This document shows, piece by piece, positions 6,871-23,854 of a DNA stretch of 29,576 nucleotides (position 1 is its first letter; every line of letters begins with the position of its first letter). The stretch covers positions 1 through 29,576 of IMG/VR virus record IMGVR_UViG_3300047362_000678; one strand, given 5' to 3'. The stretch is from a virus. Both the position numbers and the translations under genes were made by a program. The notes under the pieces are model-generated. The model saw only the letters and a list, made by a program, of their open reading frames with translations. It ran no database searches and was not told the origin of the DNA.

Positions 6871-7512
6871 ATGGTAAGCATACCAAAGTTCCACTATAGT
6901 GTGGATAAAAATGCTAAGGTTGCAATTTGCGTTCCTGTGCGTGACCTTGTAACTGCTAAATTCACTTATAGTCTTGCCATGCTAACAAAAAAGTGTGGCG
7001 AGACTAATAAAAAGATATCCATACATATGAATATGGGAAGTGAAGTTGCAATGCAACGCCAGCAGTTAGCAATGGAAGCATTAGAAACAGATTGCACACA
7101 CATATTATGGCTTGATAGTGATATGACATTTCCAACACATACTATACAGGCTTTACTATCACATGATACAGATATTGTAGCATGTAATTACAGTACTAGA
7201 GTTCCTCCTTATAATCCTGTTGCATTTATGGACGTAAATAACTTAGAGTATAGGGCATATGATGGCACAGGCTTACACGAAATTGCCGCAGTTGGTATGG
7301 GGTGTATGTTAGTAAAACGTAATGTTTTTGAAACAATGGAAGCGCCATATTTTAGTGTCATATGGAACGACGATTATACCAATCTAATTGGTGAAGATTT
7401 TTACTTTTGTACAAAAGCGAAGGACGCAGGGTTTAGTGTTATGTTAGATAAAGATTTAAGCAAACATATAACTCATATTGGTACAAAAGAATTTACTATT
7501 AAAGGCGAATAA
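6871..7512 (+). CDS. Glycosyltransferase (GT-A type)
   Basis: A 213-residue protein with GT-A hallmarks. An N-terminal strand (VAICVPVRD) precedes the substrate site; a D-x-D metal/nucleotide-sugar motif follows in 'HILWLDSDM' (D82, D84); then 'VGMGCMLVKR' near 141-150 and 'GEDFYFCTKAKDAGF' near 174-188, corresponding to the acceptor/catalytic acidic segment of this fold; a terminal 'HITHIG' supplies a possible metal-ligand His. Known relatives transfer sugars from nucleotide donors. In a phage the target could be DNA, a virion protein or host surface glycan, and the sequence does not say which. It is three bases upstream of a second sugar-transferase-like gene. The family call is strong, the substrate unknown. 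Confidence 0.8.
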   Translation: MVSIPKFHYSVDKNAKVAICVPVRDLVTAKFTYSLAMLTKKCGETNKKISIHMNMGSEVAMQRQQLAMEALETDCTHILWLDSDMTFPTHTIQALLSHDTDIVACNYSTRVPPYNPVAFMDVNNLEYRAYDGTGLHEIAAVGMGCMLVKRNVFETMEAPYFSVIWNDDYTNLIGEDFYFCTKAKDAGFSVMLDKDLSKHITHIGTKEFTIKGE

Positions 7513-7514
7513 TA

Positions 7515-8630
7515 ATGTTAAATTTTGGAAGTGCAAAAGGCAGTATGCTAGAGTTTAAAGGTCAAAGTGTTGTTACGCCTTGGGATAGATTAAAGAAACA
7601 TATTTTTGAAAGTTATCCAGTTTACAGTGGTCCACGTATTGATGGTTTTGATAATCTTTTACTTAAAGGTTTAGAATATCAAAAAGAATCTGAAATGGTT
7701 TGGATTATTGATGAAAATGCAATCGAAATAGAAAAAGCAACTTTAAGAGAAGAATTCCCTTGGCACTATAGACCTAATGGAGACGGACTTAACTTTATAC
7801 ACGAGTTTCCTAGATCAGGTAAACGAACAGGCCGCTCATACTCGTGGGGCGATATTAAACTAGTACCAACTGGTGGATATGCACATGGGTATTTAAAAAA
7901 TAAAATTATAGGAACAAATCATGATGCTGACTTTGACATCTTTATGATTAGTTTCCACGAAGCAGAAGCAGATAGAAATTTTGCAAAATTAAAAGAACGT
8001 TTTTCTGATGCACAACATGTTAAAAATGTTGAGGGTATTGGTGAAGCACACAAAGAATGTGCCAAACGTAGTAAAACCGATATGGTATACATTGTAGACG
8101 CCGATGCAGATGTGCTAGGTTCTTTTAAGTTTGATTATATTCCTCCACTTGCTAAACGTAGCAATACAACATATGTATGGAGTGCTCGTAATCCAATTAA
8201 CGGATTAGAGTATGGATACGGGGGAATTAAACTGTTTCCAAAACAACAGTTATTAGAAATGGGACATAACCTTCCTGATTTTAGTACAGGAGTTGCTTTT
8301 TATCAACCAGTAAGTGATGTTAGCAATGTAACAAACTTTAATAAAGATCCTTATAGAACTTGGCGTAGTGCATTTCGTGAGTGTGTTAAACTTGCGAGTA
8401 AGGTTAATCCAAACCAAGTAGATAAAGAGACTATAGAAAGGCTTGAAGCGTGGACTACAATTGATAATGGTGCTCGTTTCGGTCGTTATTGTATTAAAGG
8501 TGCTTTAGAAGGTAAAACATATGGTGAAGAAAATAAAGATAATGTAGAAGCGTTAAATAAAATTAATGACTTTGAATGGTTACGTGAACAATTTGTTGAA
8601 AGTATGAAAAAACGTATTAGTGCAGACTAA
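7515..8630 (+). CDS. Glycosyltransferase-like protein with two related halves
   Basis: A 371-residue protein. From about residue 138 there is a GT-A-like run: FDIFMISFHEAE, a helix, then 'GEAHKECAKRSKTDMVYIVDADADV' containing a DADAD metal-binding-type motif (195-199). An odd feature is an internal echo: 'EMVWIIDENAIE' (60-71) ... 'WGDIKLVP' (111-118) in the N-terminal half matches 'DMVYIVDADADV' ... 'GGIKLFP' in the second half, but the first half lacks the DxD. This suggests an ancient duplication with one degenerate copy. It starts two bases after the previous gene and its stop overlaps the convergent Nudix gene by 4 bases. Substrate unknown. Confidence 0.65.
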   Translation: MLNFGSAKGSMLEFKGQSVVTPWDRLKKHIFESYPVYSGPRIDGFDNLLLKGLEYQKESEMVWIIDENAIEIEKATLREEFPWHYRPNGDGLNFIHEFPRSGKRTGRSYSWGDIKLVPTGGYAHGYLKNKIIGTNHDADFDIFMISFHEAEADRNFAKLKERFSDAQHVKNVEGIGEAHKECAKRSKTDMVYIVDADADVLGSFKFDYIPPLAKRSNTTYVWSARNPINGLEYGYGGIKLFPKQQLLEMGHNLPDFSTGVAFYQPVSDVSNVTNFNKDPYRTWRSAFRECVKLASKVNPNQVDKETIERLEAWTTIDNGARFGRYCIKGALEGKTYGEENKDNVEALNKINDFEWLREQFVESMKKRISAD

Positions 8631-21131: not shown

Positions 21132-21160
21132 AACCCGTTACTATAATGGTAACGGGTTTT
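21132..21160 (+). terminator. Terminator after the Cys-cluster gene
   Basis: Bases 21132-21141 pair with 21149-21158 (10 bp: AACCCGTTAC / GTAACGGGTT), 7-base loop, with a short T-run 21157-21160. It separates the gp18-gp16 morphogenesis transcripts from the gp17 unit. Confidence 0.8.
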
Positions 21161-21167
21161 CTACCTA

Positions 21168-21175
21168 TATAAATA
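21168..21175 (+). promoter_or_regulatory. Late promoter box (TATAAATA) 5 bases from the next ATG
   Basis: An exact TATAAATA ends at 21175 and the ATG is at 21181. With T4 late promoter geometry (box ending near -6) the transcript would start at or next to the ATG, giving a leaderless or near-leaderless mRNA. It is the only good promoter between the upstream terminator and gp17. Confidence 0.8.
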
Positions 21176-21180
21176 GAAGT

Positions 21181-21870
21181 ATGAGACCTACACAAGTTTA
21201 CACTGATCCTAACGGACAGTCTATTGAATTTTATATTCCAGAACCACATACAAAAATATGTATTAACGTATCAGGCGGCGCTGATAGTGCTATTATGTTG
21301 TATATGTTAATAAATTATTGTACTAAAAATATACCAGATGCAGAAATACATGTTATTACATGTGCTAACGTAGTAAAAGGTTGGTACAATGCAAAATGGA
21401 GTGTCAGTGTAATTGACAAAGTACAAGAACTGACAGGCACAACATTAATTAAAAGTCATTATACATATTATAGTGATGACCAACGTAGAGAAGAATTAAA
21501 TGAAGCAGAAAAGTTATGTCATAAGAATCATGGGATAACATTTACTATTCACGGAACAACACAAAATCCTGATAAATCTATTGAGTATTTACAAAAAGGT
21601 AGACATGCACCGCGTGATGCTGGCCATGGAAGGCCAGCATATAGTCAATTAAATGACAGAGTTGTGCGGTGGATGCCAGTCATGAATGTTGATAAACGTT
21701 TAGTAGCATACTTATACAAACATTTTGATATGTTAGATGATTTATTACCGTTTACAAGAAGTTGTGAACAACATAGTGAGGATAATACAGATAAACCAAG
21801 TTGGATGGTAACACATTGTGGTAAATGCTGGTGGTGTAAGGAAAGAGAATGGGCATTCGGAAAATTGTAA
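21181..21870 (+). CDS. PP-loop ATPase, QueC-like (7-deazaguanine synthase-type)
   Basis: A 229-residue protein. The PP-loop 'NVSGGADSAIML' (SGGADS, 31-36) binds ATP and activates a carboxyl or similar group as an adenylate. The C-terminal 'RSCEQ ... THCGKCWWCKEREWAF' (C195, C213, C216, C219) follows the QueC zinc signature S-C-x(n)-C-G-x-C-x2-C-x2-R/E-x-A-F. QueC makes preQ0 for queuosine and for 7-deazaguanine DNA modification. The middle region (residues 55-165) differs from standard QueC: the YGQRH motif after the PP-loop is not visible, so a different substrate, as in PAPS-reductase-like PP-loop enzymes, is possible. No other Que/dpd gene is visible in the window. It overlaps the next gene by 22 bases. 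The start lacks a good ribosome site. Confidence 0.75.
   Translation: MRPTQVYTDPNGQSIEFYIPEPHTKICINVSGGADSAIMLYMLINYCTKNIPDAEIHVITCANVVKGWYNAKWSVSVIDKVQELTGTTLIKSHYTYYSDDQRREELNEAEKLCHKNHGITFTIHGTTQNPDKSIEYLQKGRHAPRDAGHGRPAYSQLNDRVVRWMPVMNVDKRLVAYLYKHFDMLDDLLPFTRSCEQHSEDNTDKPSWMVTHCGKCWWCKEREWAFGKL
21617..21640 (+). other. Strong GC-rich hairpin inside the PP-loop gene
   Basis: ATGCTGGCC (21617-21625) pairs perfectly with GGCCAGCAT (21632-21640) around a 6-base loop. This is a stable 9-bp stem in an otherwise AT-rich coding region. It encodes the 'DAGHGRPA' segment and has no T-run behind it. Confidence 0.75.
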
Positions 21871-22313
21871 TACAAGCAGATGAAAAAAATGAAAATAACT
21901 GCCTTATTTTTGGTAAGAATTGCATGGAAATGCCATATATTCGTGGCGACCATCTTAAAGACTTATACTTTAAAGAACAATACGAATGTGACCAATTAGA
22001 AATAAAATTTCCTTGTGATAAGTTGGTTTTAGATGAATGGGATAAAATGTTACAACATCTACCAAAGAAACTAGACCAACTACAAATATGGAATCATCAT
22101 CATGCGTTTACTATTTGGAATAGTCCATACTATGATAGTCTAACGTATATTATAGATTCGATAAATACTACACATATAGAATTTTGTGATTGTGTATATC
22201 CAGATTATGTATATAACGAAAATGATAAAGATAGAATTTTTTATATTTTAGAAAAATATAAACATACACATGAACACTTATATTATCTTAGATTGAATTA
22301 CTTATGGCAGTAG
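21849..22313 (+). CDS. Unknown 154-aa protein between PP-loop gene and gp17
   Basis: I do not recognise this family. The protein is rich in aromatic residues (W, Y, F), His and Cys: 'NNCLIFGKNCMEMPYIRGDHLKDLYF' near 16-41, 'QIWNHHHAFTIWNSPYY' near 79-95, 'IEFCDCVYPDYVY' near 110-122, and 'HTHEHLYYLRLNYLW' at the end. The spaced 'LKDLYF', 'LEIKFP', 'LDQLQIW', 'HIEFCDC', 'LYYLRLNY' strands suggest a small leucine-rich-repeat-like or solenoid arrangement. The His/Cys content could allow metal binding. It overlaps the upstream gene by 22 bases and gp17 by 10 bases, so all three are translationally chained. GGAAAG serves as its ribosome site. Confidence 0.7.
   Translation: MGIRKIVIQADEKNENNCLIFGKNCMEMPYIRGDHLKDLYFKEQYECDQLEIKFPCDKLVLDEWDKMLQHLPKKLDQLQIWNHHHAFTIWNSPYYDSLTYIIDSINTTHIEFCDCVYPDYVYNENDKDRIFYILEKYKHTHEHLYYLRLNYLWQ
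22160..22167 (+). promoter_or_regulatory. Possible internal late promoter box (GATAAATA) upstream of gp17
   Basis: GATAAATACTACACATATAG lies inside the preceding coding region 136 bases before the gp17 start. The trailing C and downstream TATAG resemble the real late boxes, but the first base is G and the coding sequence may explain it. It would give gp17 an independent supply. Confidence 0.3.
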
Positions 22314-23854
22314 ATACCAAACTTACCAAGACCCCGTATCAAAGGGAAAAATATACTGAACAAGATTTAATAGAGTTGGCTAAGTGCGCCCAAGACCCAA
22401 AATATTTTATGACTGAATATTGCTTTATTCAGCATCCAACAAAGGGACGTATGAAATTTGAGCTCTACAATTATCAGAGAGATCTAGTAGACATATATCA
22501 TAACCATAGATACAGTATTGCTATGCTTGCTAGACAGATGGGAAAATCAACTGCTGCTGCAGGTTACCTATTATGGTACGCTATGTTTAACCCTGACCAG
22601 ACAATTCTTATTGCGGCACACAAATACAGTGGTGCTCAAGAAATTATGCAACGTATACGTTTTGCTTATGAGACATTGCCTAACTTTATTCGTGCTGGTG
22701 TAACAGCATACAATAAAGGCAGTTTAGAGTTTGACAATGGTTCACGTATCATTGCACAAGCAACAACAGAAAATACAGGACGTGGTTTGTCCATTTCATT
22801 AGCATACTTAGACGAGTTTGCATTTGTTCGTAATACGATTGCTCGTGAATTCTGGACATCACTTTCTCCTACACTAGCAACAGGTGGTAAGTGTATTATT
22901 ACAAGCACACCAAACCAAGACGATGACCAATTTGCACAAATTTGGAGAGATAGTTTAAAGAATATTGATGCATACGGTAACGAGCAAGACACAGGGTTAA
23001 ATGGCTTTGCAAGTTTTCTTGCAACATGGGACGCACATCCAGATAGAGATCAAGAATGGGCAGATGTAGAACAAGGTAAGATTGGTGAAGAACGTTTTAG
23101 ACGTGAACATAATTGTGAATTTATCGCATATGACGAAACCTTAATTGATAGTATTAGATTAAGTAATATGGTTGCTAGAGACCCGTATGCTAAACAAGCA
23201 CAAGTACGTTGGTATAAACCAGTTAATAAAGAAGCACTATATGTTATGGGTTTAGATCCTTGTTTAGGCACAGGCGGAGATAACGCCGCTATACAATTAT
23301 ATGAACTACCTACTATGAAACAAGTAGCAGAATGGCAACATAATAGAACACCAATACAACAACAAGTTAGGATTATACAGAGTATTTCTAAGTACCTAGT
23401 TGAGGAAGGTGTTGAACCTGATAATATATATTATAGTATTGAAAATAATACATTGGGAGAAGCCGCTATTGTTATGTTAGAGGAAATAGGGGAAGAAAAT
23501 ATACATGGATCGATGTTAACTGAAAGTAAACGTGTTGGCCATGCCACTCGTATTAGAAAAGGATTTACCACAACACATAAGACTAAATTAAGTTCTTGTG
23601 CTAAATTAAAGCAGTGGGTAGAAAGCGATAAGATAGAAATCGCAAGTAAGAATCTACTTCGTGAACTTAAAACTTTTGTGGCACGTGGTCAAAGTTATTC
23701 AGCAAAAGAGGGCGAATCAGATGATCTAGTAATGTCATTAATATTAGTAGTTCGTATGATACAAGAAATTACTAAGTATGAAGATGTAGCAAATAATATG
23801 TTTGATTTAGAAGAAGAAGAGTATGATGAGCCCATGCCAATGAGCTTCTTATAG
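22304..23854 (+). CDS. gp17: Terminase large subunit gp17
   Basis: A 516-residue packaging motor with both domains. ATPase: Walker A 'ARQMGKST' (76-83), Walker B 'LAYLDE' (166-171, D170/E171), coupling motif 'ITSTPN' (199-204). Nuclease (RNase H fold): D318 in 'VMGLDPCLGTGGDNA', E380 in 'YYSIENN', and D473/D474 in 'GESDDLVMSL'. It cuts concatemers and pumps DNA into the prohead through the portal. T4 gp17 is 610 residues; this one is shorter at the N-terminus, as in marine relatives. The start is weakly ribosome-bound (TTACTTATG) and overlaps the previous gene by 10 bases, so coupling is likely. It is separated from gp16 and located after gp19, unlike T4. Confidence 0.96.
   Translation: MAVDTKLTKTPYQREKYTEQDLIELAKCAQDPKYFMTEYCFIQHPTKGRMKFELYNYQRDLVDIYHNHRYSIAMLARQMGKSTAAAGYLLWYAMFNPDQTILIAAHKYSGAQEIMQRIRFAYETLPNFIRAGVTAYNKGSLEFDNGSRIIAQATTENTGRGLSISLAYLDEFAFVRNTIAREFWTSLSPTLATGGKCIITSTPNQDDDQFAQIWRDSLKNIDAYGNEQDTGLNGFASFLATWDAHPDRDQEWADVEQGKIGEERFRREHNCEFIAYDETLIDSIRLSNMVARDPYAKQAQVRWYKPVNKEALYVMGLDPCLGTGGDNAAIQLYELPTMKQVAEWQHNRTPIQQQVRIIQSISKYLVEEGVEPDNIYYSIENNTLGEAAIVMLEEIGEENIHGSMLTESKRVGHATRIRKGFTTTHKTKLSSCAKLKQWVESDKIEIASKNLLRELKTFVARGQSYSAKEGESDDLVMSLILVVRMIQEITKYEDVANNMFDLEEEEYDEPMPMSFL

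Follow-up and report, generated by a model that had tools for sequence, protein, structure and literature searches.

PP-loop proteins of a QueC/Cap9-like family and their association with radical-SAM gene arrays in phages

The locus upstream of the terminase gene

The stretch of DNA analysed here, referred to as the window, is a 29,576-base fragment of a T4-like phage, taken from a virus record. Among isolates, its terminase is closest to those of the PA5oct-group jumbo phages (53.9% identity), followed by Phosso and Atu_ph07. The features discussed below are:

7515–8630, plus strand: gene for a 371-aa protein, 30–52% identical to genes inside or beside phage radical-SAM arrays (L089, L096, L102)
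21132–21158, plus strand: hairpin AACCCGTTAC-TATAATG-GTAACGGGTT followed by TTCT, a likely terminator of the upstream gene
21168–21175, plus strand: T4-type late promoter box TATAAATA, ending 5 nt before the ATG of the PP-loop gene
21181–21870, plus strand: PP-loop ATP-pyrophosphatase ORF, 229 aa (Pfam QueC, AlphaFold2 model, hhalign, relatives)
21271–21288, plus strand: SGGADS pyrophosphate-binding loop, residues 31–36
21565–21573, plus strand: NPD/NPP motif, residues 129–131, at the position of YPDC in QueC
21763–21852, plus strand: zinc-type signature C195-E...C213-x2-C216-WW-C219-KER-x-W224, with an equivalent in QueC and Cap9
21849–22313, plus strand: ORF2, 154 aa, an orphan rich in aromatic residues, His and Cys
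22304–23854, plus strand: terL, gp17-like terminase large subunit, 516 aa (Terminase_6N 1.7e-20; PHROG terminase 2.4e-142)

The initial annotation described a PP-loop gene and an unrecognised gene chained to gp17 behind one late promoter, and this layout is confirmed. The ORFs are real, the overlaps are exactly 22 nt (PP-loop ORF/ORF2) and 10 nt (ORF2/terL), and TATAAATA stands ahead of the unit. The SGGADS loop and the C-x17-C-x2-C-x2-C signature lie at residues 31–36 and at C195, C213, C216 and C219. Compared with ten clade relatives, the PP-loop protein is under purifying selection (pN 0.20–0.28 versus pS 0.57–0.68).

The late box is found directly 3' of the hairpin. Read on the plus strand, this hairpin with its T-run is a likely terminator, while an automated scan calls the same hairpin on the minus strand; equivalent GC hairpins with T-runs are present 5' of the PP-loop gene in most relatives. 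In T4, the late box occupies positions -13 to -6 (PMC2988020), so the 5-nt gap places the predicted +1 at the A of the PP-loop ATG. The arrangement TATAAATA-N5-ATG is kept at the PP-loop gene in 20 of the 27 contigs of the clade that lies beside terL (the terL clade). This spacing suggests that the gene is probably transcribed late as a leaderless mRNA, which would then be translated without a leader. In L020–L023, however, the box is instead 18 nt 5' of terL and the PP-loop start is preceded by GGAG; the late timing read from the window thus holds for most, but not all, of the terL clade.

Over all loci analysed, the distance from TATAAATA to an ORF start has a sharp maximum at 5 nt, with 18 of 64 distinct sites, and no other spacing from 0 to 30 nt is seen at more than 4 sites. 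The genes 3' of the boxes are mostly PP-loop or radical-SAM genes, with a few structural or other genes, in a sample that is enriched for PP-loop and radical-SAM loci. It is possible that marine T4-like phages make leaderless late mRNAs from TATAAATA-N5-ATG. The same arrangement occurs at L164:2816, L195:3818, L205, L230, L283, L290, L294 and L303. Besides the box at 21168, the whole window contains only two more, at 2803 and 14326, both on the plus strand, 27 and 48 nt ahead of a gene start. A scan for sigma-70 promoters finds fewer than in shuffled sequences.

ORF2 was described as an unrecognised protein rich in His, Cys and aromatic residues, which agrees with our analysis: H, C, F, W and Y make up 25.3% of it, against 10.3% in the other proteins of the window (binomial p 9e-8), and there is no Pfam, PHROG or PADLOC match and no NCBIfam match above chance. 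Codon usage weakly indicates that the frame is coding (score 0.002; each of the other five frames is at -0.28 or below), and it stays open in none of 20,000 mononucleotide shuffles. An AlphaFold2 model from the single sequence has a pLDDT of 44. No relatives were found in any collection searched, except for one identical contig. ORF2 is absent beside the PP-loop homologues in all other terL-clade contigs, which the initial annotation had itself named as telling against a pair. Its idea of a new PP-loop chemistry with ORF2 as the partner is supported, as a possibility, for the chemistry but not for the partner.

Elsewhere in the clade, more than 20 contigs have the PP-loop gene joined directly to terL, with a spacing of -22 to +45 nt. 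The exception is L019, where an unrelated 226-aa ORF occupies the slot of ORF2, while in PA5oct and Phosso the upstream gene abuts terL and the slot is empty. On the far side of terL, other contigs contain peroxiredoxin-like, amidinotransferase-like and 2OG-oxygenase-like genes (labels read from the sequence). As the genes around terL differ, its surroundings are a variable cargo site. Unrelated metabolic-type genes flank terL in L019, L020, L006 and L024, a cargo hotspot beside the terminase. ORF2 is most likely a lineage-specific passenger, and the position of the PP-loop gene beside the packaging motor probably reflects placement in a cargo slot and not a packaging function.

Relationship to QueC, Cap9 and other PP-loop enzymes

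A scan of IMG/VR gave 84 relatives of the PP-loop protein, and later searches many more. Conserved in the family are SGGxDS, NPP (129–131), R145, P166, K172 and TxSC(E) (192–196), as well as C213 and C216-WW-C219-KER-x-W224. In a 36-sequence alignment (A1), S31, G32, G33, D35 and S36 are invariant, i.e., the SGGxDS pattern by which, within a Rossmann-like alpha/beta fold, the PP-loop superfamily is recognised. The cysteine cluster C195/C213/C216/C219 is predicted to hold a structural zinc. Several phages carry two to four diverged PP-loop copies. Using tblastn, the PP-loop protein and three family members find no match in 50,697 phage records, while E. coli QueC, the positive control, finds 303 records; thus, no isolate is available as a reference.

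Structurally, AlphaFold2 with the 36 sequences gives a confident model (pLDDT 89.3, pTM 0.90). Its Foldseek matches in the PDB include many PP-loop enzymes (NcsA, TtuA, MnmA, NadE, TilS, GMPS, LarE), with query TM scores of about 0.35–0.5, and QueC is not among the best 50 PDB matches listed. The structure search that had been proposed as a check places the protein firmly in no family, Que or other (best TM 0.4–0.6). Among proteins of known structure, sequence profiles place QueC (3BL5, 1.4e-5), ThiI (2.2e-5) and Cap9 (1.6e-4) nearest. The Pfam QueC model (PF06508) matches at 4.4e-5, above the gathering cut-off, and when nine QueC proteins, one from E. coli and eight from phages, are compared with the family as a profile by hhalign, the probability is 98.4% across 190 columns. 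From the profile and hhalign matches, the PP-loop protein is a remote relative of QueC and Cap9, in agreement with the QueC-like fold and zinc signature noted at the outset. As part of the overall explanation preferred below, we consider it fairly likely that it belongs to a previously unsorted viral branch of QueC/Cap9-like PP-loop proteins. The window protein carries the signature of this family, TxSC...CxxCWWCxERxW, and nests among array members in the phylogeny.

The similarity to QueC (PF06508 cluster 1, 7-cyano-7-deazaguanine synthase) covers the PP-loop fold, SGGxDS, a Pro and a Lys before the cysteines, the C-xn-CxxCxxC pattern, a trailing Arg and a full-length profile alignment. However, QueC has C-x8-CxxCxxC with CY, while the window protein has the same layout with C-x17-CxxCxxC and CE; it also has CWWCKERxW in place of CxxC-R. 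The nine QueC proteins share Y35, G36, Q37, E42, V96-P97-x-R99-N100, D127, Y131, D133, P159, K165, Y189 and R206. Y35, Q37, VPxRN, Y131, D133 and Y189 are not conserved in the viral family alignment, from which the YxQxHxxE (YGQxHxxE) and VPxRN motifs are absent; YPDC of QueC aligns to NPP in the family, or to YPP in the clade found between nrdA and nrdB (the nrd clade). E. coli QueC loses its activity when Y35, R99, Y131 or Y189 is changed to alanine (PMC13329287), and it is through the Tyr and Asp of YPDC that the deazaguanine, CDG, is recognised (PMC13279940). The initial annotation had noted that no YGQRH segment is visible and suspected a different substrate. No canonical segment is indeed present, and the loss of YPDC, YxQxHxxE and VPxRN makes a substrate other than that of QueC likely.

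There is also no Que pathway around the gene. Among 30 contigs with relatives, QueD is found in two, FolE in one and TGT/DpdA (PF01702) in none, the control for the last being positive in 14 of 14; these contigs are 13–165 kb long and mostly fragments, so that the absences weigh little. PF06508 has no match in PA5oct and Phosso, complete jumbo phages that lack the PP-loop gene. The proposed Que/Dpd (preQ0) pathway is thus not borne out. A canonical QueC identity was rejected, as YxQxHxxE, VPxRN and YPDC are missing and QueD, FolE and TGT are nearly always absent from the related contigs.

Cap9, from type IV CBASS, is a small QueC-like protein that has SCE around the first zinc cysteine, where QueC has TCY (PMC13329287), as in the window protein. 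However, Cap9 still has the YxDC and Y/FxQ motifs that bind CDG, which the window family lacks, and no CD-NTase neighbour was found; in the terL clade the PP-loop gene is flanked by a structural gene and by terL. QatC of the Qat system is different too, with about 400 aa, long N- and C-terminal extensions, its own motifs and qatA, qatB and qatD as neighbours, against 229 aa and the flanking genes just named for the window protein. Cap9 and QatC each come with a partner protein, which is missing here. The motif CxxC-x6-CxC described for WbpG-type N-acetyl-sugar amidotransferases (PMC13329287), a class of 300–400 aa, is absent from both the sequence and the alignment.

Radical-SAM arrays and the history of the family

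Outside the terL clade, the PP-loop gene occurs mainly in two settings: between nrdA and nrdB, and within radical-SAM gene arrays. Radical-SAM domains are present in 25 of 32 contigs with a PP-loop gene, with up to 17 in one 41-kb contig. Of 44 PP-loop copies, 23 lie within 1.5 kb of a radical-SAM gene, where the radical-SAM footprint would predict 10.5; with the terL and nrd contexts left out, it is 23 of 25. Of the array radical-SAM proteins that were scanned, nine hit twitch-domain models, NF033640 or related ones. The proteins scanned score as NF033640, and the QueE model appears only once, far below its cut-off. The NF033640 cut-off was reached in none of 14 control genomes, nor in PA5oct or Phosso.

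As the first contigs were picked by their PP-loop gene, the search was also run in reverse. Two radical-SAM protein queries gave 135 loci (L171–L305), partly redundant and many of them truncated, of which 80 (59%) contain PP-loop genes, in 131 copies. For 89 distinct array PP-loop genes, the same-strand upstream neighbour is a radical-SAM gene in 72 and the downstream neighbour in 59; the median overlap is 8 nt. Six ORFs of 827–840 aa (L292:12607–15129, L194:12565–15063, and those in L273, L274, L280 and L281) are radical-SAM::PP-loop fusions, in which one polypeptide contains a radical-SAM domain at about 1–430 and a PP-loop domain at about 583–838, with CX3CX2C and SGGADS intact. They are 46–99% identical, the one in L292 being only 46% identical to the others.

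Other array genes, labelled by profiles built in this analysis, are SDR-like, nitroreductase, PLP-like, carbamoyltransferase, Asp/Asn hydroxylase and AMP ligase genes. These companions look like a biosynthetic island, without fixing the class of its product. Two further families are frequent in the 135 loci, one class-I-methyltransferase-like (component 0, 122 loci) and one glycosyltransferase-like (component 1, 106 loci); these labels are readings of the sequence, and the related proteins scanned have no Pfam or PHROG name. The few relatives from MAGs (L164–L168) also have radical-SAM genes nearby. In the Bdellovibrionia MAGs, at L165:4489–5909 and L168:3925–5344, the relative lies beside genes that read as CysD-like (SGGKDS) and APS-kinase-like.

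The PP-bearing loci are the same kind of arrays as the radical-SAM cassettes of marine T4-like phages. In the accessible text of two reports, one T4-like genome has 12 radical-SAM genes and cassettes lie in the host-recognition cluster (PMC5332604, PMC7029224), with no mention there of a PP-loop partner, fusions or late leaderless-type promoters. Our literature search, which covered sources outside subscription journals, found nothing linking PP-loop proteins to phage radical-SAM arrays. The real partner of the family appears to be the radical-SAM enzymes and not ORF2.

In the terL clade itself, no radical-SAM gene was found near the PP-loop gene. Two contigs of the clade (G006, G008) carry NF033640 proteins far from it; these belong to different families and are not orthologous, which speaks against a conserved radical-SAM partner within the clade. 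In the window, the gene at 7515–8630 adjoins an Anp1/glycosyltransferase-like gene (6871–7512), and also nearby are two genes for tail fibres that have endosialidase chaperone domains.

A tree of 77 clusters, obtained from 189 sequences at 75% and rooted at the midpoint, shows how the contexts are related. Members of the phage radical-SAM arrays make up 58 of the 77 clusters. All members of the terL clade form one lineage (100/99), which a branch with support 99/88 unites with a set made up mostly of array members. The nrd clade likewise forms a single lineage (100/100); in it (L041–L081), nrdA and nrdB flank the PP-loop gene, and thyX and a dCMP deaminase gene are close by, thyX often lying upstream together with an SGNH-like gene. 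With most clusters in arrays and the terL and nrd contexts each a single lineage, the simplest history is that the PP-loop gene left a radical-SAM island once for the terL site, the direction of this move being read from the midpoint root.

Possible function of the PP-loop family

PP-loop enzymes of known function activate an oxygen by adenylation and put nitrogen or sulphur in its place. In two pathways, QueE-QueC and Dph1/2-Dph6 of diphthamide synthesis, the PP-loop enzyme amidates a product whose carboxylate comes from an earlier radical-SAM step. The phage systems differ from these in their NF033640 twitch-domain radical-SAM proteins, in arrays of up to 17 and in the fusions. The same order of steps is nevertheless the most economical explanation because of the neighbourhood and fusion data. 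We suggest, with somewhat better than even confidence, that the PP-loop protein is an ATP-dependent enzyme that completes the products of phage radical-SAM enzymes by adenylating and probably amidating them, and that its gene was relocated once in the terL clade. Two points weigh against this: the terL clade shows no radical-SAM gene near its PP-loop gene, and PP-loop genes are present in no more than 59% of the radical-SAM loci, many of which are truncated.

By analogy with the known enzymes, (i) a twitch-domain radical-SAM enzyme would build or rearrange a product with a carboxylate or carbonyl oxygen, and (ii) the PP-loop enzyme, its cysteine cluster serving as a structural zinc holder, would adenylate this oxygen and swap in nitrogen, giving an amide- or amidine-type product. 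In the jumbo-phage clade, one PP-loop gene could then have left the radical-SAM islands once and settled directly 5' of terL, where a T4-type late promoter would drive it, probably as a leaderless mRNA.

An enzyme that amidates sugars or surface glycans, similar to WbpG and acting on host-surface or virion glycans, is an unlikely alternative. The arrays hold SDR/epimerase-like, carbamoyltransferase, nitroreductase, desaturase and glycosyltransferase-like genes, and two glycosyltransferase-like genes are found beside the tail fibres in the window. In pelagimyophages, the radical-SAM cassettes belong to the host-recognition cluster (PMC7029224). However, the WbpG motif is lacking and the nrd context does not fit. 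To our knowledge, no glycan has been described for these phages.

We would give a similarly low chance to a role in nucleotide metabolism, in which ThyX, NrdA/NrdB and radical-SAM steps would provide a hypermodified (d)NMP for viral DNA. The nrdA-PP-nrdB clade near thyX and dCMP deaminase fits such a function at least as well as it fits the radical-SAM explanation that we prefer, and thyX adjoins the PP-loop gene in several arrays. The window gene and several radical-SAM genes are, however, behind late promoters, which is late for DNA precursors, and thyX is in none of the terL-clade contigs, which are fragments.

A protein ligase of the Cap9/QatC type, placing a deazaguanine-like group on the N-terminus of a virion protein or an anti-immunity decoy, is improbable. 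The Cap9 profile match and the shared SCE speak for it, as does ORF2 beginning with Met-Gly, given that QatB needs an N-terminal glycine (PMC13279940). On the other hand, Y115 and D117, which hold CDG in Cap9 (PMC13279940), correspond to the lost YPDC positions, ORF2 is not conserved and no other small partner protein is conserved in the terL clade, and there is no Cap10/TGT-like gene. Still less probable is a diverged QueC whose preQ0/ADG would go into tRNA or into 7-deazaguanine modification of DNA, the host contributing the remaining steps: the remote homology and the deazaguanine systems of some jumbo phages (PMC7824862) would allow it, but residues needed by E. coli QueC are lost, the pathway genes are nearly always missing, and two to four diverged copies in one phage would be odd for QueC. 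A sulfurtransferase is conceivable from the closest Foldseek matches (NcsA, TtuA, MnmA), but by sequence profile the family aligns best to QueC.

"QueC-like" annotations in phages (phrog_1550, PF06508) can thus mask a different enzyme. T4-type late promoters can be positioned with the start codon as the predicted first transcribed base. Radical-SAM arrays are abundant yet unexplained in marine phages, and a dedicated ATP-dependent partner, which most of the array loci (80 of 135) carry and which is sometimes fused, is a handle on their chemistry; a single protein of 830 residues makes the question testable. The array-linked PP-loop enzymes point to a hidden chemical-modification pathway in marine phages. 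Tentatively, at not quite even chances, this would be a late radical-SAM and PP-loop pathway with partly fused enzymes that newly modifies virion proteins, surface glycans or nucleotides. It would be the third independent use of radical-SAM chemistry followed by adenylation, after queuosine and diphthamide, and a jumbo-phage clade would have moved its ATP-dependent step into the terminase unit.
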